From a virus, in IMG/VR virus record IMGVR_UViG_3300044678_000823, positions 1 to 29,941 of that record: 29,941 bases of DNA, one strand, 5' to 3'. The notes below the pieces were generated by a model. That model was not told the DNA's origin. It worked only from the letters and a program-made list of their open reading frames with translations, and made no database searches. Every line of letters begins with the position of its first letter. Position 1 is the stretch's first letter. A program made the translations under genes and the position numbers. Shown here piece by piece: positions 791-28,681 of this stretch.

Positions 791-811
791 TTTGAAAATA
801 AAAATTACTTC

Positions 812-819: not shown

Positions 820-842
820 GAGTATAGATAAATACATATTAA

Positions 843-1469: not shown

Positions 1470-1526
1470 TAACATAATACAAATATTATTTTGGAAATAG
1501 ATTAATTTGAAAATAAAAATTAGTTA

Positions 1527-1534
1527 TATTTATA
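1527..1534 (+). promoter_or_regulatory. Candidate phage late promoter element (TATTTATA)
   Basis: Exact TATTTATA within TATATTTATAG, starting 33 bases before the ATG at 1560. It lies in the duplicated copy of the leader seen before 843. A TTTG sits 15 bases before the extended TATATTTA, too close to fit the host promoter spacing of about 20. Confidence 0.55.
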
Positions 1535-1559
1535 GAATATAGAATAAAAACAATTCAAA

Positions 1560-2186: not shown

Positions 2187-2205
2187 AATAATAAAAGAAT
2201 AGAAT

Positions 2206-4790: not shown

Positions 4791-5201
4791 ATGAGCTGGA
4801 AATTTAATGGAAATATTGTTACAGAAGAAACCACACCTGAAGGTGCTGTTGGGTTTGTCTATAAAATGATACATATCCCAACCGGTAGATTCTATATAGG
4901 TAAAAAATCTCTATCTCAAACCAGAAGATTAAAGCCCCTTAAGGGAAAGACTCGTAAAAGGGTTGTAAAGAAAGCATCTGATTGGGAGAAATACTATTCA
5001 TCAAACGAATGGATTAAGTCGGAAGTAAAAGCTGGAAACGCTGAATACTTTGAAAGAGAAATCATTCAATTTTGTTTTTCAAAGAAATCCTTATCATATT
5101 ACGAAATTAAATGGCAATTTCATTACGATGTCCTTGCCAACGAACAAGCAATAAACGAAAACCTTATGGGGAAGTTCTTCCGTAGGGATATTATAAATTA
5201 A
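4791..5201 (+). CDS. SegE-like GIY-YIG endonuclease
   Basis: 136 residues. The GIY-YIG core is visible as GFVYKMIHIPTGRFYIGKKS: G21-F-V-Y24 replaces GIY, and Y35-I-G37 supplies YIG. A basic stretch follows (residues 44-62, many Lys/Arg), then the W-K-Y-YSS-W-K segment typical of the SegE type, and a likely catalytic Glu (E105, in SYYEIKWQFHY). A C-terminal Asn (N124) may close the fold. GIY-YIG enzymes cut double-stranded DNA. The T4 Seg proteins are free-standing homing endonucleases that spread their own locus. No separate DNA-binding domain is present. It lies between virion genes and replication genes, three bases after the upstream stop. Selfish homing or a recruited recombination role are both possible. 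Confidence 0.8.
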   Translation: MSWKFNGNIVTEETTPEGAVGFVYKMIHIPTGRFYIGKKSLSQTRRLKPLKGKTRKRVVKKASDWEKYYSSNEWIKSEVKAGNAEYFEREIIQFCFSKKSLSYYEIKWQFHYDVLANEQAINENLMGKFFRRDIIN

Positions 5202-9300: not shown

Positions 9301-9534
9301 AGAGTGGCTCTAATTAACATATGCAACCTGCCTAGACCAAACTTCTTAGTAATTGATGAAGGGTTCGGAACATTGGATGCCGATAACCTATCATCACTCT
9401 TTATGATGATGCAATATCTTAAAACTCAATTTGATTTCATATGGGTTATATCTCACTTAGAACAAATGAGAGATATTGTGGATGGACTTATTGAAATTAA
9501 AAAAATAGATGGTTTTAGTAAGATTAACTTCTAA
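6391..9534 (+). CDS. Single-chain Mre11-Rad50 (SbcD-SbcC, T4 gp47-gp46) recombination nuclease
   Basis: 1047 residues combining both subunits of the T4 recombination nuclease. Residues 1-345 are an SbcD/Mre11 metallophosphoesterase: HIADIH (8-13), AGDIAH (47-52), GNHD (83-86), FHG (153-155) and GDIH (187-190). From about residue 368 an SbcC/Rad50 ATPase begins: Walker A PNAQGKSS (403-410), Q-loop Q515, long coiled-coil arms (about 560-890) with a zinc hook C723-N-F-C726, signature CSGMEKF (958-964), Walker B FLVIDE (985-990) and H-loop His 1022. All key residues are present, so it is probably active in end resection, recombination-dependent replication and host DNA breakdown. In T4 the two are separate proteins encoded by adjacent genes in the same order. 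The frame is continuous through the junction. The gene is coupled to primase by ATGA overlap. Confidence 0.95.
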   Translation: MRLKRIYHIADIHIRNIKRHKEFREVFYSMFEEIKKRGTDDSIIYLAGDIAHAKLEMSPELVSEISWLFTECNKLCPTIVIAGNHDCNMNNADRLDVLTPIVDALKLPNLTYLKDTQVYGIGDVDFAVFSIFDNKDNWPKADTLFGNKKIALFHGPVDNSATDVGYVVSSRHFTTEIFDGYDLALLGDIHKRQEMISPSGCKVVYAGSLVQQNFGETLDKHGFLVWDLDTMTYEEVDIQNDYGYYTLDVDGGIVPDVTDMPLYPRLRVRITNTDTADTKRMMADITAKYGVEDFTIIRTDTFNKKKTNDREVRLEVDSIADINHQNSLIGEYVERMMPFVTKEDLDGIEKINRDINSRIQPSELQRNISWKPIKFDFSNMFSYGERNVINFDKVTGLMGLFAPNAQGKSSLFDAISFCLFDKCSRAYKASAIMNNRKADFHCQLEFSVDGVTYGIRREGRTINKGKNVKVDVDFWREGDSGRESLNGTERRDTNQVIETYVGRYEDFIMTALSLQANNALFIDKSQSERKDLMAQFMGLDIFDKLYDTATNDIKDVNALIRNFRKTDFTSELAQKENDLNSKREEYDSLDAEKLELESRKSELDEQIVGLSQQIIPIQGNLDIDELNRNVKKIETDLTIWGDGKFDKIQKHTETKELVREAKEMVDSKLTINGTDIGDAQIQLNLVKGQIKDTLHQIELLESGIKHNKEKLSHLAEHEYDPNCNFCMNNIFVKDAKETEKKLGEQSNQLETLNILHGALITQLGELAGVEDQFKQWKQWTDEHKRLIVVRDRLESDIKTCDSKIELLQLQLERVKADIKTYNDNVETITNNQALDIQIQNVRREKKGVEIQISDVNKLMLKLMSEVGATKTYIDNMVAKMEEVKELETKNQLYTFYLDAVKKDGVPYELISKALPAIENEVNNILGQVVDFSISMDTDGKNINARIVYEDQEWALEMCSGMEKFISGLAIRVALINICNLPRPNFLVIDEGFGTLDADNLSSLFMMMQYLKTQFDFIWVISHLEQMRDIVDGLIEIKKIDGFSKINF

Positions 9535-9697
9535 CAACCGGTAATACATTTTTAGGTGTGGTCTTGTTCAAAGACTGCACCTTTTCTTTTATAAGCGTTT
9601 CTACTAAACCATTTATCTTATATCCTTTTTCTTTACAAAATTCTTTTAGTTGCTGATGTATTTCAGCATCTATTTGTATCATTGCGTACTTCTTCAT
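9524..9697 (-). CDS. Small ribbon-helix-helix DNA-binding protein
   Basis: 57 residues, the only minus-strand gene I can support. The start is CAT at 9695-9697 and the stop TTA at 9524-9526, so its end overlaps the recombination nuclease gene by 11 bases. The sequence fits a CopG/Arc-type ribbon-helix-helix: a short N-terminal strand (KYAMIQID, residues 3-10), helix A (AEIHQQLKEFCKEKG), a Tyr-Lys-Ile-Asn turn and helix B (GLVETLIKEKV). A basic, Pro-containing tail of about 17 residues follows. Such proteins dimerise and bind operator DNA with the N-terminal strand. It is predicted to be a repressor or phage regulator. Two 10-base repeats just before its start are a candidate operator. No host-type promoter is visible upstream. 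It is placed between an early unit and the giant late fibre gene. Confidence 0.75.
   Translation of the reverse strand: MKKYAMIQIDAEIHQQLKEFCKEKGYKINGLVETLIKEKVQSLNKTTPKNVLPVVRS
9554..9590 (+). terminator. Intrinsic terminator of the primase/recombination unit, inside antisense gene
   Basis: AGGTGTGGTCTT (9554-9565) pairs with AAGACTGCACCT (9571-9582) around GTTCA, followed by TTTCTTTT (9583-9590). On the + strand transcript all 12 pairs form, two of them G-U. On the opposite strand the same two positions become A-C mismatches and no T run follows, so the signal is directional. It lies 20 bases beyond the recombination gene and within the codons for the C-terminal tail of the ribbon-helix-helix protein. 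Confidence 0.85.
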
Positions 9698-9787: not shown

Positions 9788-12700
9788 ATGGCAAGATTAA
9801 AAAAATTCGGAGATACATACGAACCTGCATTATCAACCTATAAAACATTTATAACAGATACGGCACCAAATTCTGTATATTTTAGAATTTCTGATTTTAA
9901 TGAAATTTTCACTGGTGGTAAAAATGGATTCCTAATTGAAGGTTCTGAACATTTATTGCAAAGTACTGAAGTAAAAATTCATATTGTTGATGTAGATGGA
10001 AACTCTGTATATGCTGAACCGGGTGATGGTATTCCTGAATACTATGAAGGTATTAATAAAATAGTTTCTGTACATGTATATGAAGATACACCAATAGGTC
10101 AAGCTAAAATTACTATTTTAGGTGAGTTAAAAACATATATTGATGAAAATGGAGTAGTAAGAGATATTCCAGATGATTGGAAAGGAGTTTATAATCTTAA
10201 ATGGGAAAGGGTATTTACATTAAATAAAAATTTATCAAACGAAGATTTGGTAAGATTTTATAGAAGACCTAAAATTTCTATTGCAGAATTAGTAAAACCA
10301 GTATATTCTGCTGGGTTTGTAACAAAAACTCAAACAGGATTGGCATTAGGACAACCATTAGTTCCTATTGAAAATACAAGCATTGTCAACTTTAATTCAC
10401 CAACTTCTTATAGAATAAAAATACCAAATACTAATATGAGTTGGTGGACTGGTTCTATGGTAGATAGTGATATAACATTTCCAACTTTAAATTATACATC
10501 AACAGTAGAATCTATTGTTAATGATAAAGAATTAGTTGTAGTACAACCATATACTGAAAATAATATTGTCAAATCATTTACAGCCGAACCATATAATATT
10601 AACTTTAGACATATTGAAGGAGTTACTAATATAGCAACTGCATTAACTGGTTCATATGCAAAAATTAATATTAACGATTTAACAACTTTTGTTGGAGATG
10701 TTGCTAGAGTTAGAGTTTTTAGAAAATCCGAATCGGATGTATCTGATTATCAATTTGTACAAGAGATACAATTAGAAGCTAATGAGTTATTAATTGATAA
10801 TGGTACTAAAACTAAAAATCAAGAAAACTATGGTACATTCACTCAAGACATTTTATCTACATATTGGAATGCATCAAATCCATCTCTTACTACAACATTT
10901 AATCAAACATATCTTTATTCTTCTGTAAGACTTGATGGTGGTAATACACCATATTGGTTTCATGTTAAAGATGTAAACTCTGCAACAACAACTACAACTG
11001 ATACAACTATACCGATTACAACGGGAGGAGAATACACTCTTGATTTTAATATAAGATTATTACAAAATGTTTCATCGGAAAATTATATTAGAGCTTTTTT
11101 AAGTGGTTCTAAACAAAGTACTTATCAAAATGTAACTAAAACAATTCAAGTTGACCAAACGATAGCTACCATATATTCTGATAATAGTCTTTTACAAAAA
11201 TCAACAAGCACAAATAATATAATAGCTGAAGAAATAGATAATGCTAGATTATATTTTGAAGTAAAGGGTAGTGGTTGGCATATTGCAAATGTTTCATTTA
11301 AAGCATCGCAAGAAACAGCGTTTTCTCCTGATTCAATTACTTTTATACAACCAGTACCAAGAAGTTTACCAGTAGAAACATTTTTATATCGTTTTGAATT
11401 TTATGATATTAATCTCAATTTTATTCCTGTATTGGTTGAAGCAGTAAAAGAATTTAATGGTGGTAATTTACAAAATTTACAAAAATCTTTAAGATTTAAT
11501 CCAAATGCATTATATTTCACATTTGATTCAGCTTCTGTTCCAGTACCACCTACTGTAGTGGGATTCCGAGTAGAGAAAAATTTATTAACTGGTTCTATTA
11601 CATATACATCTCAATCATATGATTCGGAAGGTAACTTATTAAATTCATCTCAATATGCAGGTGCTGGTGCAAGATTTCCTGGCTTTTTGACAAATAGAAC
11701 AACCGATAATCCAATAATGACAGTTACGGATTTTACTGGTTCTAGAGAAGATATAGATGTTCAATATATAGTTGTAACTGGTGAAGTGGAAGGATTTACT
11801 GATAGTGTTACATTTAGTAGAGTGTTGGACGGATTTGGTGGAGTTAGTCATATCATTAGACCTTACAGAGGTACTGATATTAGAAATAGTAGTACTCAAA
11901 GTTTGGAAATACAAGCGATAAGAGTAGATGGTGTAAATGAAATTTTACTAAACGCATCAGCTAGACCAAATAGAGGATGGAACTTGAATCAATTGCATGT
12001 TTTATCACGTTCACTAAATTATGAAGCAAACCCAAATTTAGAACCTGATAGATTTGTAAATTTAATGTATGTTACTGCTAGTAATTATATTAAAGGAGTT
12101 ACTGTTGGTGAATTGGGTACTAAAGAAATTGTTCATAATGCTGTATTTGATAGAGATTCTATTGATAAAAGATTAATAGTATATTTGATGCCATCTTGTT
12201 CTTTGCATGGACCTCCTGCATATGCAACATCCGCATCTGTATTAACTTCAATAATACTTTCTGATTTTCAAGATGGATTGGATTCTGGTATTATACGATA
12301 TGATACTGACCATTTTAATATTAATTTTAGAAATGGTAATAGGTTTATTCCTGTAAGTTCTAATGTAACTGGTTCTTTTTATGTTAGGGGTACAAATGAT
12401 AATCCATTAACGGCATCATTGACTATTTTCCCATCAATGTCAATCAATAAGGATTTTGTTCCTGAATATTGGATGTATTATGTAACCCATAGTAGTACAT
12501 GGAATGAAAATATTACTGTTGTTGCAACCGATGATGATAATAATATTATAATATCACGTCCACCTAATAATGCATACGATTCTTTTTTAACACCAATTCA
12601 TGGTTCTTATGTTAAAGGTCCTTTAGTACAAAGTAAGACATTAACGATAACTTACACTTATACTGAACCATACACAAAGGCAACAACTAGTACGGATAAA

Positions 12701-15700
12701 ACATTTACAATTGTCCCAGAAGGTAAACCGGGAGATGAACCTGTTATATTTGAAGTCACACCGGCAACAGTAGAATTAAAAGCAAATCCAAAGGGAGAAG
12801 TTTTAAGTTACTCATCTTCTGTTACTGAAATTAGATTAAAGCAAGGTTCTAGATATTTGTCTTATACAGCAAGTAGAAAAGATGGTACATTCTACGCTGT
12901 TCAATCATCTATAACATCTGAAAAAATAAATCCTGGTTACATCATAAATGTACCAAAAAATCACATTGGATTTAATAAAGATTATACTGGTTCATTATTT
13001 GTGGGAACTGCAAATAATTTAACTGATTTGAGTGGTAGTGTAACATACAATGTATTAATACAACCATATTATACATCATCTTTGTATAGTGCAAGTTTTA
13101 CACAAAACTATAAAAAGATAATGGATGGTGCCCCACCTATTGAAATTATATTAACTCCATCATCTCAAACATTATTAGCAGATGAGGTAGGTTACATAAC
13201 ACCGGCTAATTATATTGCAGCAAATACAACATTAAAAGTAAGAGAAGGTGCAGATTTTTTAACATTTACTTCAAAATCATCAGCACCTGGAACATTTAGA
13301 ATTCAAAGTCTTCCAGGTAATCCTGGTGGTAGTGTGATTGGTTCAAATATTGCAGTTGGTATAATACATTCATCATCGGCTGATACTGCTACAATTGCAT
13401 TTAATTCGTTTGAATATCCACATATATCGGCAACCGCAGTATATAATATTGTAGTATATCCACATTCATTAACAGCAGGACATCAATACACCGCATCTGT
13501 TTATACTAGAACTCAAACATTTACAAAAAGTGTAGCACAAGCAACAGCTCGTACTGTTACTTTAGATTTATTAGATGGACAAGATGGAAGTCCAATATCA
13601 AGAACTATAAACTTTGATTCCGACGGGTTAAATCCAACGCCATCCCAAGCTACACTACAAGCAACAGCAGTAAATACAACTGGTTCTGTTTGGTATCAGT
13701 TTTTAAAAGATGGAGTAAGTCAAACTGGATTTGATAATACCCCACCTAACTATGGATATCAAACAGAAAACTGGATAGATAGTTCTGTAAATGATTTGGT
13801 TAGTCCTGGCGAAAATACAACTTGGAAGGTTAAGATTAGAGATGGTAATAGTAATTCAGCAACCATACCTGTTAGAGCAGAGGCATCTTTAACACTATCG
13901 GGAGTAAAAGAAGGTTCTAAAGCATATAACGCATTATTAACAAATGAAAATGCTTCAATAGTTTATAAAGTTTCTGGGCAAACATCAAATTCTGGGACTG
14001 GTACTAGAATTATAGCAACAAAAGGAGATGTACCATTAACGCATGTTTCATCATTTGCAGCAAAATCACAAAATCCTGTTACTGGGGCAGAGATTGGTTC
14101 TATTGGGGAATATAGAGTTAAAGTACTTTCTAAATCAGGTCATATAGCATTGGCTGGTGGAATAGATGCAACTCCTGGTACAAATATAGTACCAACTGTT
14201 AGTGGTGTTGCTCAAATTGGAGATTTATCTTCTTGGACAGATCCTGAAAATAATCAAACAGCAACAATTGTATATGAAATTGATTTTGAAAATGGAAGAC
14301 AGATTCTTAATAAAACTCAATCATTTAGTGTACAATATGAAGGTAACGTAGGACCTGGTATTGTAATGAGAGGTGAGTGGAGAAATGATGTTGATTATAT
14401 TGGTGTTGTTGAAACTACAAATTATCGTAGAGATGCCGTAATTTATAGACCTGATGGTGTGACTAGATATTATTTAGCAATAAGTGGTAGTGGACCTGCA
14501 ACATACAATAATCAAGGAACTTTAGTAGGACCACAAACACCTCCTGTGTACACATTACCAGTAGACCCTAAAGGATATTGGGAATATGCTGGTGACCAAG
14601 AGTTTTTTGTGGCAGCTCAAATTTCAATTTTTGATGAATCATTTGTTAGAAATACATTAAACGTTGGTACTAAAAATGATTTTAATAAGTTTGCAAACAT
14701 AGTGTTAGCTGGAGGAAGACCTGACCCATATATAGCATTAGGACAGACTGGAACTGTTGGAACAGCTGGTACGGCGGGAACTACAACTGTAACACCTGGT
14801 ATTTTGGGATATGATAGACCTGGTATTTTTATGGGGTTATATGAAGATGGTGCGGCTGGTACTTCTGGTAGATTATCAATAAAAAGTTCTGGTGGTAGTG
14901 GTACTAGAGGTATTTTTTGGGATGGTGATACATTGACAATCAAAGGACATATTACCCAAACATCGGAAGGTGGTAATGTTGGTAGAAATATGGGAGCTTG
15001 GGCGGCTGGTGTTCAATATTATAATTTAGATGCCGTAACATATGGTGGTTATAGTTGGTCATCAAATTCATCGCATGTATCAACTAATAATACAAATGCT
15101 GGAACTGGATATCCTGGTTCTGGTCCTTGGTCTTTATCTCCATACGCAGCTAAATCAATTAGACAATCAGCATCAGCACAAGTATTTACTGAATTGAAAG
15201 ACGGAACATTAACTCCTGATTATATTCAATTCAGTGCAGCTAAAGAAAATATAACAGCAACAACCAGCTGGTCAACTTCACCATCTGTAACTCTATATGC
15301 TGCAGCAGCTGGTGGTAGTTCAGCATCAACGGGTGATACTGTTTATTTAAGAAAAGCAGATTTTGCAGCAAATCAATTAGTGGAAGTAACATCAACATCG
15401 GACGGTAAGACTGATAAAATTTCAGTTGTTAGAGTAAAAGAAGGTAGTGATGCATTAACAATAGTTTTAACCAATGAAGCTCATACGGTAGCAGCTGCAA
15501 ATGATGGAACTGTTTCTAGTTATGCTGGTAGTGGTACTGATATCTATGTATATGAAGGAGCAACTCAGTTAGATTATGATGGAATTGGTACTGCGGCTGG
15601 TAAATGGACTGTAACGGCAGCAGGTACTAGCGTTACACCGGGAGCACTTTCAGACGGAGGTAATTATGCTTCAATGGCAGTAGTTTCCGGAATGAGTGCA

Positions 15701-17488
15701 AACCAAGCGTTAGTTACATTTACGATTAGTGGTAAGAAATCAAACGGAACAGCATTTAGTGGTATTACAAAAATTCAAAGTTTAACAAAATCTATAAAAG
15801 GAGCTGATGGAGTTGCTGGAGCAGCAACTGCTGGAGCTGGAATTGTATTTAGAGGACTTTGGAAAAATAGTACGTTATATTACAAAAACGCAAATAGAAT
15901 AGATGTAGTAAAGATACCAAGTCATACGGGTGGATTACTATATTGGTTAGCTAGAAATACACATACATCTGCGGCAGATGGACCACCAAGTAGTGGAGCC
16001 GGTCCTGTAACAAACTGGGAATCTTTTGGAGCAAATTTTGATTCGGTAGCAACTGATATCCTATTTGCAGATATGGTTTATGCTGACCAAACTGTTAATA
16101 TTGGTTCTAATGGGTCAGCTACAATAATTCAATTAAACGCTGATAAGGCTAATAGTAATGCAAACCCATATATTTCAATTGGACAGACAGCTCTTGGGCC
16201 AGGATTTGGAAATCCGGGAATTTTCTTAGGTTATGATGGTGGAGTAGGTAAATTAAGTGTTAGTAGTGGTTTAATTGGAGGATGGCTTATTAATCCTTCT
16301 ACAATATCAAGTCCACTTGTTGGTACAGTATCTAGAATGGTATTGAATCCAAGTTCAACTATACCATCTATTAAAATTAATGATGCAAGTGGAACAGAGA
16401 GAGTTAAAATCGCCACAGGTACACTTTCATCCCCAACATCAACTACTGGATTTAGTATGGGTGGTGATGGAATAACCTTTTTGGGAGCTAATAGAAATTC
16501 AACTGGACCGATTACTAATGTAAAAACATATGTTGCTGCACAAACATCTCTTGGTACAGTTACTGCCGGTACATATGAAGCTGCAGTTACATATAATTGG
16601 ACTTCTTCTCCTGGAACCGTTACATCAATAGAACCTAATACTGCAGCATATATAAATTATTGGATTGGATATGATATACTTAATTCATCCGGTGTTATAG
16701 AGTATACTGTTTATTTGGGACAATCTAACTTAAGTAGCTGGCTTGGAAATAGTTCAACAGTCTATAATAACTTTGGACAGGCCTCATCTGAAACAAGAAT
16801 AATTAATATTGGAACAACAGGAACTTATTATTCAAGACCATTTTATGCATATACAATAGTATATGAAGGGACTACGAAGGTTCCTGCTGGGTATGCTGCA
16901 GTATATTCAATTTCACTTACATTACCAAGTGTTAGTTTTAGTAGAGTAAATCAGTTTACGGAAGTAACTGAACAAGGAATACAGGTAGTATCATCTACGA
17001 CTAGATATGTTAGAATAAGTACAAATACATCAACTGATACCGATGCATTATATGTAAAAGGGGATTTTACTGTAAATGGAGGAACAAAGACTTTTAAAAT
17101 AGACCATCCATTAGATGATACAAAATATTTAATGCATTCCGTAATAGAAAGTCCAAAAGCAGATAATATATACAGAGGAAAAGTTGAATTAATAAATGGA
17201 TATGCTGAAATTAACTTAGATACTATTTCAAATATGATGGAGGGTACTTGGGTAAAATTAAATAGAGATACTCAATTCTTTTTACAAAATATGGATGGAT
17301 GGTCTAAAGTAAAAGGTGAAGTTATTGGAAACAAATTATTTATTTATTGTGAGAATATAAATTCAACCGATTTAATATCTTATATGGTAATTGGAGAAAG
17401 ACAAGATGATGCGATAAAACAATCATACTATACTGATAATGAAGGTCATTTTATTACTGAAGTTTCTAAATATGGTTCATCATTATAA
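9788..17488 (+). CDS. Giant modular tail fibre / host-recognition protein
   Basis: 2566 residues. The N-terminus (residues 1-170, with FRISDFNEIFTGGKNGFLI) looks like a virion-anchoring domain. Residues about 170-1350 are serial beta-sandwich-like modules. Ig-like modules with VKEGS----LTNE occur near 1370-1400 and 1875-1900. Carbohydrate-binding-like modules begin with a conserved Trp at about 1531 (RGEW), 1738 (GAWAAGVQYYN) and 2025 (RGLW). A PYI--GQT...PGIF module occurs near 1646 and again near 2127. The C-terminal 135 residues (FKIDHPLDD, then YMVIGERQDDAI) match a domain I recall from phage and bacterial adhesive proteins. There is no signal peptide, membrane span or peptidase motif. 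It probably binds host surface glycan. The neighbouring glycosyltransferases raise the possibility that it is itself glycosylated. No chaperone was seen. Confidence 0.88.
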   Translation: MARLKKFGDTYEPALSTYKTFITDTAPNSVYFRISDFNEIFTGGKNGFLIEGSEHLLQSTEVKIHIVDVDGNSVYAEPGDGIPEYYEGINKIVSVHVYEDTPIGQAKITILGELKTYIDENGVVRDIPDDWKGVYNLKWERVFTLNKNLSNEDLVRFYRRPKISIAELVKPVYSAGFVTKTQTGLALGQPLVPIENTSIVNFNSPTSYRIKIPNTNMSWWTGSMVDSDITFPTLNYTSTVESIVNDKELVVVQPYTENNIVKSFTAEPYNINFRHIEGVTNIATALTGSYAKININDLTTFVGDVARVRVFRKSESDVSDYQFVQEIQLEANELLIDNGTKTKNQENYGTFTQDILSTYWNASNPSLTTTFNQTYLYSSVRLDGGNTPYWFHVKDVNSATTTTTDTTIPITTGGEYTLDFNIRLLQNVSSENYIRAFLSGSKQSTYQNVTKTIQVDQTIATIYSDNSLLQKSTSTNNIIAEEIDNARLYFEVKGSGWHIANVSFKASQETAFSPDSITFIQPVPRSLPVETFLYRFEFYDINLNFIPVLVEAVKEFNGGNLQNLQKSLRFNPNALYFTFDSASVPVPPTVVGFRVEKNLLTGSITYTSQSYDSEGNLLNSSQYAGAGARFPGFLTNRTTDNPIMTVTDFTGSREDIDVQYIVVTGEVEGFTDSVTFSRVLDGFGGVSHIIRPYRGTDIRNSSTQSLEIQAIRVDGVNEILLNASARPNRGWNLNQLHVLSRSLNYEANPNLEPDRFVNLMYVTASNYIKGVTVGELGTKEIVHNAVFDRDSIDKRLIVYLMPSCSLHGPPAYATSASVLTSIILSDFQDGLDSGIIRYDTDHFNINFRNGNRFIPVSSNVTGSFYVRGTNDNPLTASLTIFPSMSINKDFVPEYWMYYVTHSSTWNENITVVATDDDNNIIISRPPNNAYDSFLTPIHGSYVKGPLVQSKTLTITYTYTEPYTKATTSTDKTFTIVPEGKPGDEPVIFEVTPATVELKANPKGEVLSYSSSVTEIRLKQGSRYLSYTASRKDGTFYAVQSSITSEKINPGYIINVPKNHIGFNKDYTGSLFVGTANNLTDLSGSVTYNVLIQPYYTSSLYSASFTQNYKKIMDGAPPIEIILTPSSQTLLADEVGYITPANYIAANTTLKVREGADFLTFTSKSSAPGTFRIQSLPGNPGGSVIGSNIAVGIIHSSSADTATIAFNSFEYPHISATAVYNIVVYPHSLTAGHQYTASVYTRTQTFTKSVAQATARTVTLDLLDGQDGSPISRTINFDSDGLNPTPSQATLQATAVNTTGSVWYQFLKDGVSQTGFDNTPPNYGYQTENWIDSSVNDLVSPGENTTWKVKIRDGNSNSATIPVRAEASLTLSGVKEGSKAYNALLTNENASIVYKVSGQTSNSGTGTRIIATKGDVPLTHVSSFAAKSQNPVTGAEIGSIGEYRVKVLSKSGHIALAGGIDATPGTNIVPTVSGVAQIGDLSSWTDPENNQTATIVYEIDFENGRQILNKTQSFSVQYEGNVGPGIVMRGEWRNDVDYIGVVETTNYRRDAVIYRPDGVTRYYLAISGSGPATYNNQGTLVGPQTPPVYTLPVDPKGYWEYAGDQEFFVAAQISIFDESFVRNTLNVGTKNDFNKFANIVLAGGRPDPYIALGQTGTVGTAGTAGTTTVTPGILGYDRPGIFMGLYEDGAAGTSGRLSIKSSGGSGTRGIFWDGDTLTIKGHITQTSEGGNVGRNMGAWAAGVQYYNLDAVTYGGYSWSSNSSHVSTNNTNAGTGYPGSGPWSLSPYAAKSIRQSASAQVFTELKDGTLTPDYIQFSAAKENITATTSWSTSPSVTLYAAAAGGSSASTGDTVYLRKADFAANQLVEVTSTSDGKTDKISVVRVKEGSDALTIVLTNEAHTVAAANDGTVSSYAGSGTDIYVYEGATQLDYDGIGTAAGKWTVTAAGTSVTPGALSDGGNYASMAVVSGMSANQALVTFTISGKKSNGTAFSGITKIQSLTKSIKGADGVAGAATAGAGIVFRGLWKNSTLYYKNANRIDVVKIPSHTGGLLYWLARNTHTSAADGPPSSGAGPVTNWESFGANFDSVATDILFADMVYADQTVNIGSNGSATIIQLNADKANSNANPYISIGQTALGPGFGNPGIFLGYDGGVGKLSVSSGLIGGWLINPSTISSPLVGTVSRMVLNPSSTIPSIKINDASGTERVKIATGTLSSPTSTTGFSMGGDGITFLGANRNSTGPITNVKTYVAAQTSLGTVTAGTYEAAVTYNWTSSPGTVTSIEPNTAAYINYWIGYDILNSSGVIEYTVYLGQSNLSSWLGNSSTVYNNFGQASSETRIINIGTTGTYYSRPFYAYTIVYEGTTKVPAGYAAVYSISLTLPSVSFSRVNQFTEVTEQGIQVVSSTTRYVRISTNTSTDTDALYVKGDFTVNGGTKTFKIDHPLDDTKYLMHSVIESPKADNIYRGKVELINGYAEINLDTISNMMEGTWVKLNRDTQFFLQNMDGWSKVKGEVIGNKLFIYCENINSTDLISYMVIGERQDDAIKQSYYTDNEGHFITEVSKYGSSL

Positions 17489-17513
17489 GTAATTCAAAAA
17501 TATAAAAACTATA

Positions 17514-17521
17514 TATTTATA
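17514..17521 (+). promoter_or_regulatory. Candidate phage late promoter element (TATTTATA)
   Basis: Exact TATTTATA within ATATATTTATATATA, starting 26 bases before the ATG at 17540. The surrounding 40 bases are nearly all A and T, so chance occurrence is more likely here than at 3531. Confidence 0.45.
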
Positions 17522-17539: not shown

Positions 17540-17824
17540 ATGGCACAAAAAACGGAAAATTTATCTAAAGAAACATTAGATAAATTAACAGAAAAACAAG
17601 CAAAAATTAATAATTCTGTTTTTAATATCGGCCAAGCCGAATTAAGAATTATAAAATTGGAAAAAGAAATTGAGCAAATCAAATTAATGAAAGTTCAATT
17701 TGAATCGGAATATGATAAAATAGATTTAGAATTTAATGAATATATTAAAGAATTGGAAAAGGTATATCCTAATGGTGAAATTGATTTACAAGCAGGCACG
17801 GTTACATTCCATTCTGCAGAATAA
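17540..17824 (+). CDS. Small coiled-coil protein, paralogue of the gene at 21263
   Basis: 94 residues. Residues about 15-75 form a charged coiled coil (IGQAELRIIKLEKEIEQIK). The protein ends in a short conserved tail, YPNGEIDLQAGTVTFH. The product at 21263 has the same plan and a matching tail, YPQGRINLTDGTVQYQ, so the two are paralogues. Comparable small coiled-coil proteins occur in T4-like phages without a known function. It has a TATTTATA element, and a separate host-type promoter follows it, so it is probably not the first gene of the glycosyltransferase transcript. The two paralogues bracket the two glycosylation genes. Confidence 0.8.
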   Translation: MAQKTENLSKETLDKLTEKQAKINNSVFNIGQAELRIIKLEKEIEQIKLMKVQFESEYDKIDLEFNEYIKELEKVYPNGEIDLQAGTVTFHSAE

Positions 17825-17830: not shown

Positions 17831-17862
17831 TTTGGTAGTTTCCAAATAATTTCGTATATTTG
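17831..17862 (+). promoter_or_regulatory. Bacteroidota host-type promoter for glycosylation cassette
   Basis: TTTG (17831-17834), 20-base spacer, TATATTTG (17855-17862), with the ATG at 17880 starting 18 bases after the -7 element. Geometry is identical to the promoter at 5407-5438, and the spacers are also alike (both begin with G and include TTCC followed by an A-rich stretch). Confidence 0.8.
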
Positions 17863-17879: not shown

Positions 17880-20063
17880 ATGGCAAAAACTCGTAAAAAG
17901 TTACTATATGTTGCTCCCCATTTATCCACCGGCGGACAACCTCAATACCTGTATAAACAAATACAAGAATTCATTAAGGATTTTGATATTGAAGTAGTAG
18001 AAATAAATAATAGTGGTGGTAATGCATTTGTAGTTCAAAAAAATAGAATCAAATCCCTAGCAGTAGTTCATACTTTGGGAGAAGATAAATCGGAAATACT
18101 AAATGTAATTGAAGGATTTAAACCTGATATCATTCACTTTCAGGAAATACCACAATTTGATTTACCTACATACATTTTAGATACTATTTTTAAAAAAGAT
18201 AGAAACTATTTTATTATAGCAAGTACACATGGTTCATTAACAAATCCTGCTGAAATTGTATATCAGCCCGATAAATATATTTTGGTTTCTAAGTGGAGTA
18301 AGAAAAAATTTGAAGATGCTGGGTTAGGAGTTCCGTTAGATATATGGGAATATCCTATTGAAGATTATGTATTTGATAAAGAAGCTGCTCAAAAAGAATT
18401 GGGATTAGACCCAACTTGGAAGCATGTACTTAATGTTGGATTATTTGCACCTGGTAAAAACCAAGGAGAAATATTTGCGATAGCAAGACAATTAGAAAAG
18501 TATAAAATTAAATTTCATTTTGTTGGAAACCAAGCTATGAACTTTGAAGATTATTGGTTACCTTTAATGAAACATAAACCTGATAATTGTGTTATATGGG
18601 GTGAGAGAGATGATGTTCATACATTTTATGAGGCAGTGGATATGTTTTACTTTGCATCAAAAATTGAGTTGAACCCACTTTCAGTTAAGGAAGCACTTTC
18701 ATATAAATTACCATCTGTATTTAGAAAATTAGAAACTTATTTAGATACATACGATAATAATCCATTAGTACAATATATTGATGATGATTTAAAAATTACA
18801 AAAAGATTAATTTTACAAACATTAAAACCTGAAGTATTTGAAATACCAGGTTGGTTTGCATATGAGGATTTATATAATAATGTTGTTGAAAAAGCTCCAT
18901 TTGATGCAAACTTTGTTGAGGTGGGTGCTTGGTTTGGTAAATCTACAAATTATTTAGCAAGTAAAATTAGAGAATCTAAAAAGAATATTAACTTTACAAC
19001 TATTGATACTTGGAAAGGTACTGATGATGAACAACTACATCAAAATATTGTGGGTGCATTTAGTGGAGATATATTTTATGAATTTATAGATAATACTGTA
19101 CTATCAAACAACTATGGTACATTTAATATGATTAAAGATACATCACATAATGCAGGAAATCAATTCCAAAATAATAGTATTGATTTTATAATGATAGATG
19201 CTGGGCATTCTTATGAATCATTAATGGAAGATTTAAAAGTTTGGTATAATAAAGTAAAACCAGGTGGTATTATTAGTGGAGATGATTATGGTGTATTTGA
19301 AGGAGTTACTAGAGCAGCAGATGAATTTTTCTATGGACAATTCAGTAAAGGCTTTAGAAACTTTATTAGAACAAAACCACGTATTCAAATTAAGCATCTA
19401 TTAACTCGTCCTGAAGATATGAGGGAGAGGGTTAGTATTCAATCTATAAAGCAATTAGAAAAATATGGTATCCATTATCAGCCAATAGTAAATAAACCAT
19501 ATGAAGGATTTGCTCCCGCTGAAAATTGTAGAAGGCCTGAACACCTTAGTAAAGATAATAAGCCCGGTGAATTATATCCTGGCGCTGGTTTGGGTTGGAT
19601 AACTGGTAGACATTATGGATGTTATATGGCTCATAGAGGAGCATTGGAAACAATTGATGAAACGAATTATGATTATACATTAATATTTGAAGCTGATGCT
19701 TTCATTTATACTGGATTAGAAGAATTTGTTGAGATAGTTAATAAAGCATGTTTTATGGCTGAGAGAGAAGGAGCATACTTTGTTTCATTTGCAGATAACC
19801 CATCTAGAGGTAAAGAAAAAATAGATGAGTTATTTTCAAAAACAGCAGCAAACCAAGACCTTGCTCATTGTTATTTAATTCCAAATAAAACAAAAAGCTG
19901 GTGGATGGATAGGTTAGTGGATTGTGGATGGGATGTAGGTGACCTTTGGTTTAATCACGTATTTCACCATCACCCAAAATTAAGAGTTACTACAAATAAA
20001 GTATATAGTAAGCAAGCAGAGGGATACTCTCTATTAGATGAAACAGTTAAAACTTGGAGTTAA
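17880..20063 (+). CDS. Three-domain glycosylation enzyme: GT4-like, methyltransferase, GT25-like
   Basis: 727 residues in one frame. Residues 1-310 look like a GT-B glycosyltransferase of the GT4 type: LLYVAPHLSTGGQPQYL at 8-24, ASTHGSL, LVSKWSKKKF, LNVGLFAPGKNQGE at 184-197 and the acceptor-domain Glu region FASKIELNPLSVKEAL. Residues about 325-485 are a class I SAM methyltransferase of the Methyltransf_24 type: VEVGAWFGKSTNYLA (346-360), IDAGHSYESLMEDL (439-452) and KPGGIISGDDYG (460-471). Residues about 500-727 resemble GT25 glycosyltransferases: RERVSIQSIKQLEKYGI, GCYMAHRGALETI (580-592) and LIFEADAF (601-608) as the acidic metal site. The product could build and methylate a short glycan on a virion protein, cell surface or DNA; a protein target is favoured by its neighbour. 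It overlaps the next gene by TAATG. Confidence 0.85.
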   Translation: MAKTRKKLLYVAPHLSTGGQPQYLYKQIQEFIKDFDIEVVEINNSGGNAFVVQKNRIKSLAVVHTLGEDKSEILNVIEGFKPDIIHFQEIPQFDLPTYILDTIFKKDRNYFIIASTHGSLTNPAEIVYQPDKYILVSKWSKKKFEDAGLGVPLDIWEYPIEDYVFDKEAAQKELGLDPTWKHVLNVGLFAPGKNQGEIFAIARQLEKYKIKFHFVGNQAMNFEDYWLPLMKHKPDNCVIWGERDDVHTFYEAVDMFYFASKIELNPLSVKEALSYKLPSVFRKLETYLDTYDNNPLVQYIDDDLKITKRLILQTLKPEVFEIPGWFAYEDLYNNVVEKAPFDANFVEVGAWFGKSTNYLASKIRESKKNINFTTIDTWKGTDDEQLHQNIVGAFSGDIFYEFIDNTVLSNNYGTFNMIKDTSHNAGNQFQNNSIDFIMIDAGHSYESLMEDLKVWYNKVKPGGIISGDDYGVFEGVTRAADEFFYGQFSKGFRNFIRTKPRIQIKHLLTRPEDMRERVSIQSIKQLEKYGIHYQPIVNKPYEGFAPAENCRRPEHLSKDNKPGELYPGAGLGWITGRHYGCYMAHRGALETIDETNYDYTLIFEADAFIYTGLEEFVEIVNKACFMAEREGAYFVSFADNPSRGKEKIDELFSKTAANQDLAHCYLIPNKTKSWWMDRLVDCGWDVGDLWFNHVFHHHPKLRVTTNKVYSKQAEGYSLLDETVKTWS

Positions 20064-21211
20064 TGATTTATAATAATTTAAAGAAAAACGAAAACAATAT
20101 AGTAGAGGTTAAGAATAGATTAATCCTACATTTTATAAGAGGACCTTATGTTGAAATAGTAGGACCTAAATCAGCTCAATACAAAATAAAATTTATTGAT
20201 AACAAAACCAATAAAGTTTTTTATGAAAATAGAATAGGTACAAATTGTTGGTGTAAGTGTGGGGTTGAGTACTTTATTGAATGGAGAGTTGAGATATACG
20301 AAGATGGTAAACTATGGCACGAATCGGTATATAATGCAAAAGGTAAAAGAGTTTATATTGCATTGGATTCAAAAGCATTGGGTGATAGTTTAGCATGGTT
20401 TCCATACTTAGAGGAGTTTAGAAAAACACATGATTGTGAATTGGTAGTATCTACATTTATGAACGATATGTTTATAGACAATTATCCAAATATACAATTT
20501 TCCAATCCGGGTATTGAAGTTCATAATTTATATGCAATGTATACGGTAGGATTGTATTATAATGATGATAATTCTATAAACGGACTCAAAAATCCAACAG
20601 ACCCAAAATCGGTTACTTTACAAAAAATGTGTACGGATATTTTAGGATTGGAATATGAAGAAATAAAACCAAAAATAAAACAAAGACCTGTTAAACAAGA
20701 CCACGACCTAAAACAGGTGTGTATTGGTATATTTGGAACTGCTCAATCTAAATTTTGGAATAATCCAAATGGATGGCAGGATGTAGTTAATTGGTTAAAA
20801 GATAGGGGGTATGTAGTTAGATTAATATCCAAAGAGGGTGATGATTATATGGGAAATAAATTACCAACAGGAATTATTAAACATCCAAACGGACCTATTG
20901 AATTGGTTATGGATGAATTAAAAAAATCCAAAGCATTTATTGGAATTGGTAGTGGGTTAAGTTGGTTAAGTTGGGCATTAGATGTTCCGACTGTATTGAT
21001 TAGTGGATTCTCATATGATTGGGCTGAGATGAAAGATTGTATAAGAATTGCAGCACCAAAAGGAAAATGCGAAGGATGCTTTAATAGAGTTAGATTAGAT
21101 GGGGGTGATTGGAATTGGTGCCCTGACCATAAAGGAACGGATAGACAGTTCGAATGTACCAAATCAATATCATCTATTCAAGTGATAAAAGAATTAGAAA
21201 AATTCTTATAA
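20063..21211 (+). CDS. TibC-like protein O-heptosyltransferase (GT9-type fold)
   Basis: 382 residues from the ATG at 20063, whose A is the last base of the upstream stop (TAATG). A TTG nine bases earlier is in frame but less likely. The N-terminal 95 residues (HFIRGPYVEIVGP, then YFIEWRVEIY) fit the beta-barrel of autotransporter heptosyltransferases. The GT-B core follows with LGDSLAW (106-112, Asp 108 at the position of the TibC catalytic Asp) and IGIGSGLSWLSWAL (293-306). Near the C-terminus are four cysteines, C336-x2-C339-x13-C353-x11-C365, matching the metal-binding finger of TibC. Family members attach heptose from an ADP-heptose donor to Ser of beta-helical adhesins. The giant fibre upstream, or another virion protein, is a plausible target; this is an inference. 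Confidence 0.85.
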   Translation: MIYNNLKKNENNIVEVKNRLILHFIRGPYVEIVGPKSAQYKIKFIDNKTNKVFYENRIGTNCWCKCGVEYFIEWRVEIYEDGKLWHESVYNAKGKRVYIALDSKALGDSLAWFPYLEEFRKTHDCELVVSTFMNDMFIDNYPNIQFSNPGIEVHNLYAMYTVGLYYNDDNSINGLKNPTDPKSVTLQKMCTDILGLEYEEIKPKIKQRPVKQDHDLKQVCIGIFGTAQSKFWNNPNGWQDVVNWLKDRGYVVRLISKEGDDYMGNKLPTGIIKHPNGPIELVMDELKKSKAFIGIGSGLSWLSWALDVPTVLISGFSYDWAEMKDCIRIAAPKGKCEGCFNRVRLDGGDWNWCPDHKGTDRQFECTKSISSIQVIKELEKFL

Positions 21212-21262: not shown

Positions 21263-21655
21263 ATGGCAGAATTAGATAACATTCCACAAAAGCAAACAAT
21301 AGAAATCGAAACAGTTAAGTTAGATGAGAATTTGTTTAATACTATTTTAGAATTACAACAAAAATCAAATCTTTATATAGCCGATTTTGGACAAATCTAT
21401 ATTAGAAAAAAAGAAATAGAAGATGAGATGCTAAGATTAAACGAATTGACTGAAAGAACAGAAGATGAGTTTAAAGCAGTAAATCAACAACTTAAGGAAT
21501 TAGTAGATTCATTAGATGAGAAATACCCACAAGGTAGAATAAATCTAACGGATGGTACTGTACAATATCAACCAGGTGCACCAACTAGAAAGCAACTTGC
21601 TGAGCAACAAGCACAACAAGCACAATCTGGTGGTATGAAAGTTGTAAAAGAATAA
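21263..21655 (+). CDS. Small coiled-coil protein, paralogue of the gene at 17540
   Basis: 130 residues. It has a similar plan to the 94-residue paralogue, with an N-terminal extension (about 20 residues), a charged coiled coil (IYIRKKEIEDEMLRLNELTE) and the shared segment EKYPQGRINLTDGTVQYQ. It then adds a Gln/Ala-rich tail (EQQAQQAQSGG) absent from the other copy. The leader before its ATG (AAAAATATAAAAATACAATAAT...) also resembles the leader of the 17540 gene, although here the late element is degenerate (TATATATA). The function is unknown. Its position marks the downstream edge of the glycosylation cassette. Confidence 0.8.
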   Translation: MAELDNIPQKQTIEIETVKLDENLFNTILELQQKSNLYIADFGQIYIRKKEIEDEMLRLNELTERTEDEFKAVNQQLKELVDSLDEKYPQGRINLTDGTVQYQPGAPTRKQLAEQQAQQAQSGGMKVVKE

Positions 21656-21662
21656 TATCCAA

Positions 21663-21670
21663 TATTTATA
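21663..21670 (+). promoter_or_regulatory. Candidate phage late promoter element (TATTTATA)
   Basis: Exact TATTTATA in CCAATATTTATATAG, starting 24 bases before the ATG at 21687. Confidence 0.55.
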
Positions 21671-21686: not shown

Positions 21687-24473
21687 ATGAGCGAATTATC
21701 AAACTTTTTAGTAGAAACAATATTGGGAGAGGCGGCTAAGATAGACACTGTGGTGGTTGTTTATTCGGGCCGCTTTCAACCATTTCATAAGGGACATTAC
21801 GCAACTTATGATAATTTAGTACGCAAATTCGGTAAGGATAGTGTATATATCGGAACTTCTAATGTTACCGATTCAAAGAAATCTCCATTTAATTTTAAGG
21901 AAAAGAAAGTAATAATGACAACTATGTTTGGTATTCCATCAAACAAAATAGTCAATATTAAAAATCCGTATGCACCTGAAGAAATACTAAAAAAGTACGA
22001 TGAAGATACAACTGGTTTAATAGTTGTAGTTGGTGAGAAAGACCAAAATAGATTAAGCGGAAAATATTTCACACCATATAAAGGAAAAATAACTCAACCT
22101 TATTTAGATAGAGGATATGTGTACGCTTCTCCAGCAATAGCAAATCCTATTAGTGGTACTGATGTCCGTTATTGGTTAAGTGCTGGAAGCGCAGCTGATA
22201 GAAAGAAAAACTTTACAAAAGCATATCCAAAGTTTGATGACCAAATATTCAAATTAATTACTCTTAAATTAAAGAGCTTAAAGGAGTGTATTAACGAAGA
22301 AATTAAACTAAACGTAAAAGTTGGTGATACTTTGTTAATGGGTAAATTTAAAAATAAAAAAGTAGTTGTTAAATCAATAGGTGAGGATGAGTGGGGAATG
22401 CCAACAATCAATGGTAAAAAAGCAGTAACATTCCGAATTCCTAAAAAAGAACAATTAAAAGAAACCGCATCAAATAGTGGATTTAGTGGAACTGATGAAC
22501 CCGATACATCATTTGTAGCAGATGGACAACCTAGAGTATTAAACACTGCTAAGCCTGAAAATTGGTACGCTCAAGGTGGATATACTCAAATGGATACTCC
22601 AAAAGCTGACGCTATGAGAGGTAGAGGTAAAACAAAAGATACTGAAACTCAATTCAGAAAAGCATATTATAAAGTTAAGAATGTAGTTCAAAGTACATTG
22701 AATCCAGCCGATGACCCATTTAAGGTAGAAGATTGGGAAGATGCGTATAGAGAAAATCCTAACGAAAAACCTAAAAGATTCTGGGAAATGCCTGATAATC
22801 AAAAAGATACAATAATATCAAAAGAAGATATCAAAGAAATAGTTTCAGATTTTGATTCTATATTAGATGAGATGGGACTTGGTGGTGGAGCTGGTGTAGG
22901 TTTAAGTTTACCCGGTGGATATATTAATGGTGCACCAAAAGCTGATGATGTTAAGAAAGTTAGTAAGAAACTTAACAACAAAGGAATGAGTGGATATGAG
23001 GAAATTGATGAAGATAAAATTCCTGGTGGCTTGGCAAAAGGTAAAACTATAATTGATTTGGCTAAGAAATATGATTCTAAAGGATATTATGACCCAACAC
23101 AATTTGCAAAAGAATATATCAAACCTAAATTAATGAAAGGTATTAAAGTTGAAATGGAACATACAACTGATATTCGTATTGCAACTGAAATCGCTATGGA
23201 CCATTTATGGGAAGATATAAACTATTATGATAAGTTAGCTAAAATAGAAAAGTCAACAAACGAATCAATCCTATTAGAAGGTGGAGCTTATGGACATATG
23301 GCACATCCATTTGATATTGAAATGGGTTTAACATTTGGTGATTTAAAACAAATTGTGGTAAGAGCGTTAAATGGTGATTTGGAATTAGCAAGAGAGAAGA
23401 CTGATGGACAGGCATTGGCAGTTAGTTGGGTAAATGGTAGATTAGTTGCAGCTCGTAACAAATCACACTTAAAGAATAAAGGAGCCGGTGCTATGACAAT
23501 AGGACAGGTAGCAGATAAGTTTGCTGGTAGAGGTGGTTTAACTGATGCATACAACTTCGCTATGCAGGATTTATCTAAAGCAATAGCAGCCTTATCAGAA
23601 CCTCAACGTAAGAAGATATTTAAGGATGGTAGTTCGTTTATGAACTTGGAAGTAATATATCCAACGTCTGTAAATGTAATCCCCTACAATCAACCCCTGT
23701 TGGTATTTCATGGTACGTTTGATTATGATATGGATGGTACTATTGTAGGTGAAAACCAACAAGCGGCATCTATATTGGGTGGAATGATTAAGCAAGTAAA
23801 TGCACATGTTCAATCAAAATACACAATTCAAGGACCACCAATGAATAAACTTCCTAAATCAGAAGACCTTTCTAAGTTGCAAGGAAAATATTTGGGAATG
23901 ATTTCTAAATTACAATCTGAATTCGCACTTGCAGATAGTGATGGGGTTGCTGATTATCATCAGGCTTGGTGGGGTAAATTTGTAGAAAAAGCTGCAAAAA
24001 AATTAGATTCTCAAGAAAAAATAGGATTGGTAAAAAGATGGGCATTTGGAGATAAAACATTTAGAATAGCAACAATACAAGACGCTAAATTAAGAGCATG
24101 GGCTGAACAAACCGATAAGCAGGACCAACAAAAGATATCAAAGCAAAATCTAATGAGATTTGAGGAGATATTCTTAGGAGTTGGAGCGGATGTATTATCG
24201 TTTATGGAATCGGTACTTACTGCAAATCCTGATAGTGCTAAAAGACAAATGGTAGCTCGTTTACAATCAACAATCCAACAAGTAAAAGCAAGTGGTGACC
24301 CTAAGAAAATTGAAAAATTAAAATTGGAACTGCAAAGATTAAACGCTTTGGGTGGATTTGATAAAATTGTACCAAATGAGGGCATTGTATTTGTCTATGG
24401 TGGTAACACATACAAATTAACAGGTGCATTTGCACCTCTAAATCAAATTTTAGGTATTTTCTTTGATAGTTAA
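21687..24473 (+). CDS. NMN-adenylyltransferase-like / DUF5661-like / nucleotide-ligase-like fusion
   Basis: 928 residues with three recognisable parts. Residues about 20-195 are a cytidylyltransferase-fold nucleotidyltransferase: GRFQPFHKGH (28-37, HxGH) and ISGTDVR (155-161), as in NMN adenylyltransferases. Residues about 415-525 include GIKVEMEHTTD (485-495) and IAMDHLWEDINYYDKL (502-517), a pattern I associate with DUF5661. Residues about 535-928 look like the covalent nucleotidyltransferase core of RNA/DNA ligases: motif I EKTDGQ with Lys 571, MNLEVIYP (652-659), EGIVF (898-902) and YKLTG (909-913). The linker (200-415) is low in hydrophobics. The ligase part may seal or cap nucleic acid, and the first part may supply NAD or activate a nucleotide; the true substrates are unknown. 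It has its own candidate late element. Confidence 0.8.
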   Translation: MSELSNFLVETILGEAAKIDTVVVVYSGRFQPFHKGHYATYDNLVRKFGKDSVYIGTSNVTDSKKSPFNFKEKKVIMTTMFGIPSNKIVNIKNPYAPEEILKKYDEDTTGLIVVVGEKDQNRLSGKYFTPYKGKITQPYLDRGYVYASPAIANPISGTDVRYWLSAGSAADRKKNFTKAYPKFDDQIFKLITLKLKSLKECINEEIKLNVKVGDTLLMGKFKNKKVVVKSIGEDEWGMPTINGKKAVTFRIPKKEQLKETASNSGFSGTDEPDTSFVADGQPRVLNTAKPENWYAQGGYTQMDTPKADAMRGRGKTKDTETQFRKAYYKVKNVVQSTLNPADDPFKVEDWEDAYRENPNEKPKRFWEMPDNQKDTIISKEDIKEIVSDFDSILDEMGLGGGAGVGLSLPGGYINGAPKADDVKKVSKKLNNKGMSGYEEIDEDKIPGGLAKGKTIIDLAKKYDSKGYYDPTQFAKEYIKPKLMKGIKVEMEHTTDIRIATEIAMDHLWEDINYYDKLAKIEKSTNESILLEGGAYGHMAHPFDIEMGLTFGDLKQIVVRALNGDLELAREKTDGQALAVSWVNGRLVAARNKSHLKNKGAGAMTIGQVADKFAGRGGLTDAYNFAMQDLSKAIAALSEPQRKKIFKDGSSFMNLEVIYPTSVNVIPYNQPLLVFHGTFDYDMDGTIVGENQQAASILGGMIKQVNAHVQSKYTIQGPPMNKLPKSEDLSKLQGKYLGMISKLQSEFALADSDGVADYHQAWWGKFVEKAAKKLDSQEKIGLVKRWAFGDKTFRIATIQDAKLRAWAEQTDKQDQQKISKQNLMRFEEIFLGVGADVLSFMESVLTANPDSAKRQMVARLQSTIQQVKASGDPKKIEKLKLELQRLNALGGFDKIVPNEGIVFVYGGNTYKLTGAFAPLNQILGIFFDS

Positions 24474-28655: not shown

Positions 28656-28673
28656 TAAACATTAAAAAGTTTA

Positions 28674-28681
28674 TATTTATA
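28674..28681 (+). promoter_or_regulatory. Candidate phage late promoter element (TATTTATA)
   Basis: Exact TATTTATA in TTTATATTTATATG, starting 49 bases before the ATG at 28723. Confidence 0.5.

Follow-up and report, generated by a model that had tools for sequence, protein, structure and literature searches.

A candidate protein-O-glycosylation cassette in a phage, with a TibC-family enzyme and collagen-like fibres as probable acceptors

We analysed a linear stretch of 29,941 bases (the window) from the IMG/VR record IMGVR_UViG_3300044678_000823; these 30 kb are all that is known of the phage. Two overlapping genes in it encode a three-domain fusion, with two predicted glycosyltransferase (GT) domains, GT4 and GT25, around a methyltransferase, and a relative of the protein glycosyltransferase TibC. 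On balance we favour the reading that these two genes form the conserved core of a cassette for protein O-glycosylation by the phage, whose acceptors would be its own tail fibres, on their collagen-like (Gly-Ser/Thr-Ser/Thr)n shafts. The acceptor, the donor, the order of transfer, the target of methylation and the benefit are the parts that we infer. A preliminary description of this DNA had proposed that the phage makes a methylated glycan and attaches it to a virion protein, which stays the leading reading. The predicted genes and domains are as follows.

17880..20063, + strand: gene 1, GT4 / sugar O-methyltransferase / GT25 fusion, 727 residues (open reading frame, Pfam, structure models; conserved in about 65 loci)
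17892..18833, + strand: GT4 (GT-B) domain, residues 5-318 (PF00534; fold match)
18834..19379, + strand: S-adenosylmethionine (SAM) methyltransferase domain, sugar O-methyltransferase type, about residues 319-500 (PF13578 and PF05711 over cut-off)
19380..20060, + strand: GT25 domain, residues 501-727 (sub-threshold Pfam match; separate model)
20063..21211, + strand: gene 2, TibC-family (TIGR04414/BAHT) protein O-glycosyltransferase, 382 residues (start overlaps the gene 1 stop)

Enzymes of the cassette and their conservation

Gene 2 reaches 284 bits against the TIGR04414 model hepto_Aah_TibC, whose curated equivalog cut-off is 200, and its residues 40-376, nearly the whole length, match TibC (PDB 4rap) at E 3e-54. 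With active-site roles assigned after TibC (PMC4358343), the equivalent of the catalytic Asp D110, the sugar-binding T226, K230 and W305 and the four iron-finger cysteines (C339/C342/C358/C370) are kept in 77/77 close relatives; the hydrophobic pair at the tip of the beta-hairpin thumb is also kept in these 77, as Tyr-Met at 265/266. Full-length homology, Asp110, Thr226, Lys230, Trp305, the Cys finger and the thumb pair are thus what the phage enzyme shares with TibC/AAH (BAHT, TIGR04414; PDB 4rap, 4rb4), and the earlier call of a TibC-type protein glycosyltransferase with its catalytic block and four-cysteine finger is confirmed. Unlike TibC, it has Val for Arg286 and Gly for Pro300, is phage-encoded and coupled to a GT4-methyltransferase-GT25 protein, and is linked to collagen-like repeats, whereas TibC is linked to beta-helical autotransporters with strand-loop-strand repeats; the two enzymes lie on different sides of the family tree. 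Membership of gene 2 in TIGR04414/BAHT stands by homology, but an identical donor specificity does not follow. The family is further characterised by heptose transfer from ADP-heptose to protein Ser and by assembly into dodecamers.

In gene 1 (AlphaFold2 model of the whole protein, pLDDT, the predicted local distance difference test, 76.7), PF00534 matches residues 166-288 of the GT4 domain (E 9.7e-8), the E..7..E motif is kept as ELNPLSVKE, and the modelled fold gives VIA-align Z 19.8 to HepE and 19.1 to BshA. The methyltransferase domain matches Methyltransf_24 (PF13578) at residues 346-470 (E 1.1e-18) and TylF (PF05711) at E 7e-7, with 29.1 bits against a gathering score of 23; its AlphaFold2 model, with Z 19.5 to MycF and 18.2 to SpnH, resembles sugar rather than DNA methyltransferases. 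For the GT25 domain the Pfam match is sub-threshold (PF01755 at residues 574-623, E 0.004, 17.4 bits against a gathering score of 24), and the ExD motif reads FEADAF, with E and D invariant across 18 sequences. Modelled alone (AlphaFold2, pLDDT 87), the domain takes a GT25-type GT-A fold. Its best PDB match is the C-terminal GT domain of the human collagen galactosyltransferase COLGALT1/GLT25D1 (GT25), which gives Z 16.3 for 205 residues with 11% identity and is followed by GnT-I and mimivirus R655; we set this likeness to COLGALT aside as evidence of function, since it is fold-level only. The models give GT-B, SAM methyltransferase and GT-A folds, so the domains had been called rightly in the preliminary description, and the four activities that it claimed (two GT domains, a SAM methyltransferase and a TibC-type enzyme) are borne out by the Pfam and NCBIfam matches and by these folds.

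Scanning viral contigs with gene 2 turned up 98 relatives, and 80 of them were retained. Open frames and synteny persist in about 75 related IMG/VR contigs at 62-96% identity, a sequence conservation far beyond chance. Nearly all relatives have the order fibre, 94-residue protein, GT4-methyltransferase-GT25, TibC, 130-residue protein, 928-residue protein, 227-residue protein, terminase, portal, and most retain the TAATG overlap that joins the two genes (20061-20065 in the window). Loci L065-L067 and L078/L079 have no methyltransferase domain, and L078/L079 no GT25 domain either; judged by gene content, the constant core is GT4 plus TibC. Microcystis phage Mel-JY01 and six other repeat-bearing phages have the GT4 domain and the TibC-family region in one open frame, and in L313 the shared frame also includes an FkbM methyltransferase. 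The genes that surround the cassette in the window are the following.

9788..17488, + strand: putative fibre, 2566 residues (open reading frame confirmed)
17540..17824, + strand: coiled-coil protein before the cassette, 94 residues (neighbour conserved in relatives)
21263..21655, + strand: coiled-coil protein after the cassette, 130 residues (neighbour conserved in relatives)

The two reading frames of the cassette, their coordinates and their TAATG coupling had been described correctly. The cassette had also been placed immediately after the fibre gene, which has to be amended, as the 94-residue frame (17540-17824) intervenes. A homologous fibre lies upstream of the gene pair in most relatives; L078/L079 have a collagen + S74 fibre instead of one of the 2566-residue type. 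The two coiled-coil proteins are paralogues (E 1e-9); such a pair flanks the cassette in nearly all relatives and has a common C-terminal motif, YP.G.I.L..GTV.

Candidate acceptors

The preliminary description pointed to the 2566-residue fibre as substrate and, by analogy with TibC, to an acceptor of beta-helical type. Neither expectation is sustained. The substrate first suggested is probably wrong, and the system seen here is both broader and more specific than that description had it. The fibre gave no Pfam, PHROG or NCBIfam family match and, at E<=1 in NCBIfam, no strand-loop-strand or AIDA repeats; repeat partners elsewhere are collagen-like. It holds 13 G[ST][STA] triplets against 13.0 expected, which is no excess, and its Gly-X-X runs amount to a single short one (GQTGTVGTAGTAGTT at 14741-14785); we rejected it as a GTS-repeat acceptor on this count.

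The better acceptor, to judge from sequence, is probably a collagen-like Gly-Ser/Thr-Ser/Thr fibre encoded elsewhere in the phage genome. The 136-kb relative G001 (behind L026) has two fibre genes of 4539 and 4716 residues, 31-61 kb downstream of TibC, with 381 and 219 G[ST][STA] triplets. The first matches Pfam Collagen at E 8e-94; the second matches it at E 6.5e-72 and has Peptidase_S74 at its end. Candidate acceptors over the PF01391 gathering score in relatives are these two and a third at 2.7e-60. Serine codons in the longest G001 runs comprise 174 TCN and 146 AGY, and because these sets are not one substitution apart and both are used, the repeat appears to be kept at the protein level. 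Repeat runs also lie downstream of TibC in G003 and G005, and collagen-like fibres are present in all three examined long relatives whose contig extends >20 kb past TibC. In L078/L079 a 976-residue frame with Pfam Collagen and Peptidase_S74 stands directly upstream of GT4-TibC, and repeats surround the fused GT4/TibC gene of Mel-JY01 and adjoin that of LR756501.

In bacteria, relatives of gene 2 stand next to small proteins built from Gly-Thr-Ser or Gly-Ser-Ser tripeptides. Nine bacterial loci carry repeats, and in 8 of them the repeat protein is no more than about 1 kb from TibC. Testing Methylococcales genomes added two further independent cases (L127 and L129), and 360 kb of background from three of the tested genomes held 0 repeat runs; high-scoring Methylococcales members (about 660 bits) had no repeat neighbour within the short loci fetched. 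We regard the bacterial repeat proteins and their TibC-family gene as a candidate glycosylated collagen-like system.

The association was also approached from the repeat side. Contigs were picked solely by a DNA pattern, 12 consecutive Gly-[Ser/Thr-like]-[Ser/Thr-like] triplets, and TIGR04414 was over its cut-off in 16/24 of those >60 kb and in 1/12 of those of 40-60 kb (17/36 in total). Neither the enzyme (0/31) nor the repeat (0/31) occurred in the 31 controls, of which an arbitrary 14-mer had supplied 20 and relatives of Flavobacterium phage immuto the other 11. Fisher's test gives p 2.6e-6 for 17/36 vs 0/31 and 6.8e-5 for contigs >60 kb, which demonstrates linkage, not chemistry. Immuto itself, a related phage, lacks both TIGR04414 and repeats.

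Further observations concern individual repeat-bearing sequences. The two G001 fibre genes (L155/L156, 74-104 kb) contain long Gly-Ser-Ser tracts and lie beside a tail sheath gene. In Mel-JY01 (L082), the intervals 1-3052 and 9446-9650 are GTSGSS-rich collagen-like frames on the + strand, the first of 1016 codons; the deposited annotation has antisense hypothetical proteins there and is probably wrong. Gly-Thr-Ser repeat proteins stand beside the TibC-family gene in L085, L086, L087, L089, L090, L127 and L129 (Methylococcales, Polaromonas), and several have a signal-peptide-like start. The repeat contigs >60 kb that gave no TIGR04414 match are those behind L201, L202, L205, L216, L218, L232, L259 and L260.

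Donor sugar and expression

Genes next to TibC suggest the nature of the donor. A frame of ~129 residues resembling the HldE C-domain directly follows TibC, before the 130-residue gene, in 26 of the 75 loci with both ends visible, and in nearly all 26 the start of this frame and the stop codon of TibC overlap. In 13 of them a second frame of ~247 residues, resembling the HldE N-domain, comes next, and the distant relative L081 has both. The best NCBIfam matches of the two are the HldE halves (rfaE_dom_II up to 98.9 bits, rfaE_dom_I up to 104), with a wide lead over other families (e.g., 95.6 vs 53.9 bits; 104 vs 56.8 or less). Loci with these genes are scattered over the TibC tree, yet the position is always directly after TibC, which ties an ADP-heptose-type (adenosine diphosphate heptose) donor to the TibC-like enzyme; a heptose-type donor is likely on this genomic evidence. 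Epimerase genes are present in some relatives, never beside the cassette. The lineage of the window has no HldE-like gene directly after TibC, so that a heptose donor would there have to come from the host or be made by genes beyond the window. The heptose root proposed in the preliminary description is indirectly supported by these 26/75 loci and called into question by the Val that replaces TibC R286 in 77/77 close relatives.

Expression of the cassette appears to be separate from that of its neighbours. Three motifs are relevant.

17831..17862, + strand: Bacteroidota-type promoter TTTG-N20-TATATTTG before gene 1 (motif conserved in relatives)
17514..17521, + strand: TATTTATA, putative late-promoter motif upstream of the 94-residue gene
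21663..21670, + strand: TATTTATA, putative late-promoter motif past the cassette, before the 928-residue gene

The TTTG/TAnnTTTG pattern is the Bacteroidota sigma-ABfr consensus (PMC6847099). Among relatives, 52/64 have the full motif upstream of the GT4 gene, and 64/64 have the -7 element TAnnTTTG there; at any other tested gene the full motif occurs in 0-1 loci. In the window alone its count is at chance level. On the + strand of the window, TATTTATA has 7 intergenic and 0 coding copies, and ATATTTAT(A) has 8 copies in 1175 intergenic bases and 0 in coding sequence (e.g., 811-819, 1526-1534, 17513-17521, 21662-21670 and 28673-28681). In relatives, ATATTTAT is found upstream of structural genes (fibre 7/7, 928-residue gene 73/73, 289-residue gene 54/54), and we propose it as the putative late promoter of this phage group. 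With a host-type promoter of its own before gene 1 and ATATTTAT at the structural genes, the cassette thus lies inside the late region but is promoted separately. We discarded TATAAATA as a late promoter of T4 type (8 copies vs 9.0 expected by chance; its reverse-complement orientation is confined to intergenic gaps).

Since the cassette promoter is of Bacteroidota type, the host probably belongs to the Bacteroidota. The terminase is closest to those of Flavobacterium phage immuto (57%) and Mel-JY01 (56%); the recorded host of the latter, Microcystis elabens, does not fit a Bacteroidota host.

Proposed mechanism, rival explanations and comparable systems

We hypothesize that host RNA polymerase would transcribe the enzymes from the cassette's own promoter; such a host-recognised promoter in the late region means that these enzymes could be available at the time of late fibre synthesis. 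The TibC-type enzyme would then place the first sugar, probably heptose from an ADP-activated donor, onto Ser/Thr of the fibre repeats, the GT4 and GT25 domains of gene 1 would lengthen the glycan, and the methyltransferase domain would cap or decorate it by O-methylation. As for the benefit, we conjecture, in line with the roles proposed for the sugar on BclA (PMC8968730), that a dense glycan may stabilise or protect the proline-free triple helix; it may also add solubility and shielding. More tentatively, and with slightly less than even confidence, we extend the proposal to many aquatic phages: their proline-free collagen-like Gly-Ser/Thr-Ser/Thr shafts would be held or protected by dense O-glycosylation that starts with a heptose added by a TibC-type enzyme, a sugar that HldE-like enzymes of the phage would supply in some lineages, and is elaborated by GT4, GT25-like and methyltransferase domains, with a bacterial branch (Methylococcales and others) acting on small secreted collagen-like proteins.

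Several observations weigh against glycosylation of collagen-like fibres from a heptose donor. The window itself holds no collagen-like gene, and the 133-kb relative G002, whose contig ends about 19 kb past TibC, has no repeat runs. In the association test the control habitats were unmatched and the contigs not fully independent, and TIGR04414 was missing from 19/36 repeat contigs (8/24 of those >60 kb, 11/12 of those of 40-60 kb). The repeat thus does not require the enzyme, although contig incompleteness may explain part of this; the large negative contigs may use another glycosyltransferase or be incomplete. COLGALT1 acts on hydroxylysine, and its likeness to the GT25 domain, at the level of fold and family, does not establish function. 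With respect to the donor, the HldE-like frames stay under the equivalog cut-offs (TIGR02199, 86-99 vs 181.5 bits; TIGR02198, 87-104 vs 345 bits), and 12 records contained no GmhA-like gene. TibC R286 binds sugar, and R286A abolishes or largely diminishes activity (PMC4358343); this position is Val in all 77 close relatives and Val, Ile, Leu or Met in the sister clade, therefore the donor pocket differs from that of TibC.

Because of this changed sugar pocket, we considered that the TibC-like enzyme glycosylates protein with a non-heptose donor, which is otherwise compatible with our proposal and which we regard as possible, if clearly the less probable choice. Besides the hydrophobic residues at the R286 position it would account for the Gly at P300 and for the R, T, L or V found at the R286 position in other phage fusions, and the best PDB matches of the HldE-like adenylyltransferase are cytidylyltransferases; however, HldE domains are the best NCBIfam family for both linked genes by a wide margin, and kinase and adenylyltransferase stand together after TibC. 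Other alternatives concern the acceptor. That it is the neighbouring 2566-residue fibre, or some other protein of the virion (the flanking coiled-coil pair, for instance), seems unlikely to us: the fibre, the 94-residue gene and the cassette are constantly together, homologous fibres lie upstream in most relatives and the fibre contains 10.8% Thr and 9.9% Ser, but its sequence has neither the strand-loop-strand match nor the triplet excess nor more than a single short Gly-X-X run, and in L078/L079 the cassette adjoins a collagen + S74 fibre without one of the 2566-residue type. Both fibre kinds may be glycosylated.

Phage glycosyltransferases, among them those encoded near tail fibres, and rfaE in pelagimyophages are by published default assigned to alteration of the host surface (PMC7029224), a view also published for freshwater actinophages (PMC10202952). 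Applied here, the cassette would modify lipopolysaccharide (LPS), O-antigen or capsule and exclude rival phages, and its host-type promoter in place of the late motif would suit such a role. We nevertheless consider this improbable, since the characterised TIGR04414 enzymes act on protein Ser, not lipid (PMC4358343), every close relative has its TibC-like gene within the structural region, the TibC family is associated with collagen-like fibres, and the bacterial relatives adjoin the same kind of repeat proteins. The preliminary description offered DNA modification as a further alternative. Glycosylation or methylation of phage DNA is very unlikely: one PHROG label reads 'DNA methyltransferase' (phrog_2675), whereas the methyltransferase fold and Pfam match are those of sugar O-methyltransferases (MycF, SpnH, TylF), TibC-family activity is on protein and no base-modifying gene stands beside the cassette in the window.

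Glycosylated collagens are known from other systems, with which the proposed fibre glycosylation can be compared. BclA of Bacillus spores has a prokaryotic Gly-X-Y collagen-like shaft with glycans (PMC8968730); it differs from the phage case in its enzymes and in being a spore rather than a virion protein, and the phage repeats are Gly-Ser/Thr-Ser/Thr without proline. Mimivirus encodes a bifunctional lysyl hydroxylase/glycosyltransferase that modifies viral collagen (PMC8968730), and its R655 (GT25-fold, 9crz) is among the best fold matches of the GT25 domain of gene 1; unlike the phage cassette, this is hydroxylysine chemistry in a eukaryotic virus with no TibC-type enzyme. Mycobacteriophages also decorate their virion proteins with phage-encoded enzymes, according to the passage in PMC12619734 that cites Freeman et al. 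2023, but the sites described there are capsid and tail-tube C-termini and the hosts are actinobacterial (PMC12619734). We found no direct report of a phage TibC or of phage collagen glycosylation in the open literature that was searched. In pathogens, TibC-type enzymes are known to make glycosylated autotransporter adhesins; the present results link the family, in viruses and environmental bacteria, to collagen-like Ser/Thr-rich repeats. If our proposal is true, viral enzymes of a freshwater phage family would produce glycosylated collagen without a eukaryotic cell, a counterpart of collagen hydroxylysine glycosylation. It would also assign a role to a large set of phage glycosyltransferases that are currently interpreted as modifying LPS or DNA, offer a testable reason for proline-free phage collagens, and name enzyme-acceptor pairs for laboratory test.

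Finally, the window has a structural region on one strand and includes a T4-like terminase (PF03237). A megablast of the window against isolated phages gave no match. Tandem 208-residue proteins at 843-1469 and 1560-2186 are apparently paralogous, and the first, the one searched, had no Pfam match. A SegE-type GIY-YIG endonuclease at 4791-5201 (PF19835, E 4e-26) is a probable homing endonuclease within the structural region. The 928-residue protein (21687-24473) combines an N-terminal cytidylyltransferase-like domain (GRFQPFHKGH) with a KTDG nucleotidyltransferase-like motif, and a similar gene in immuto carries a NadR-like annotation.

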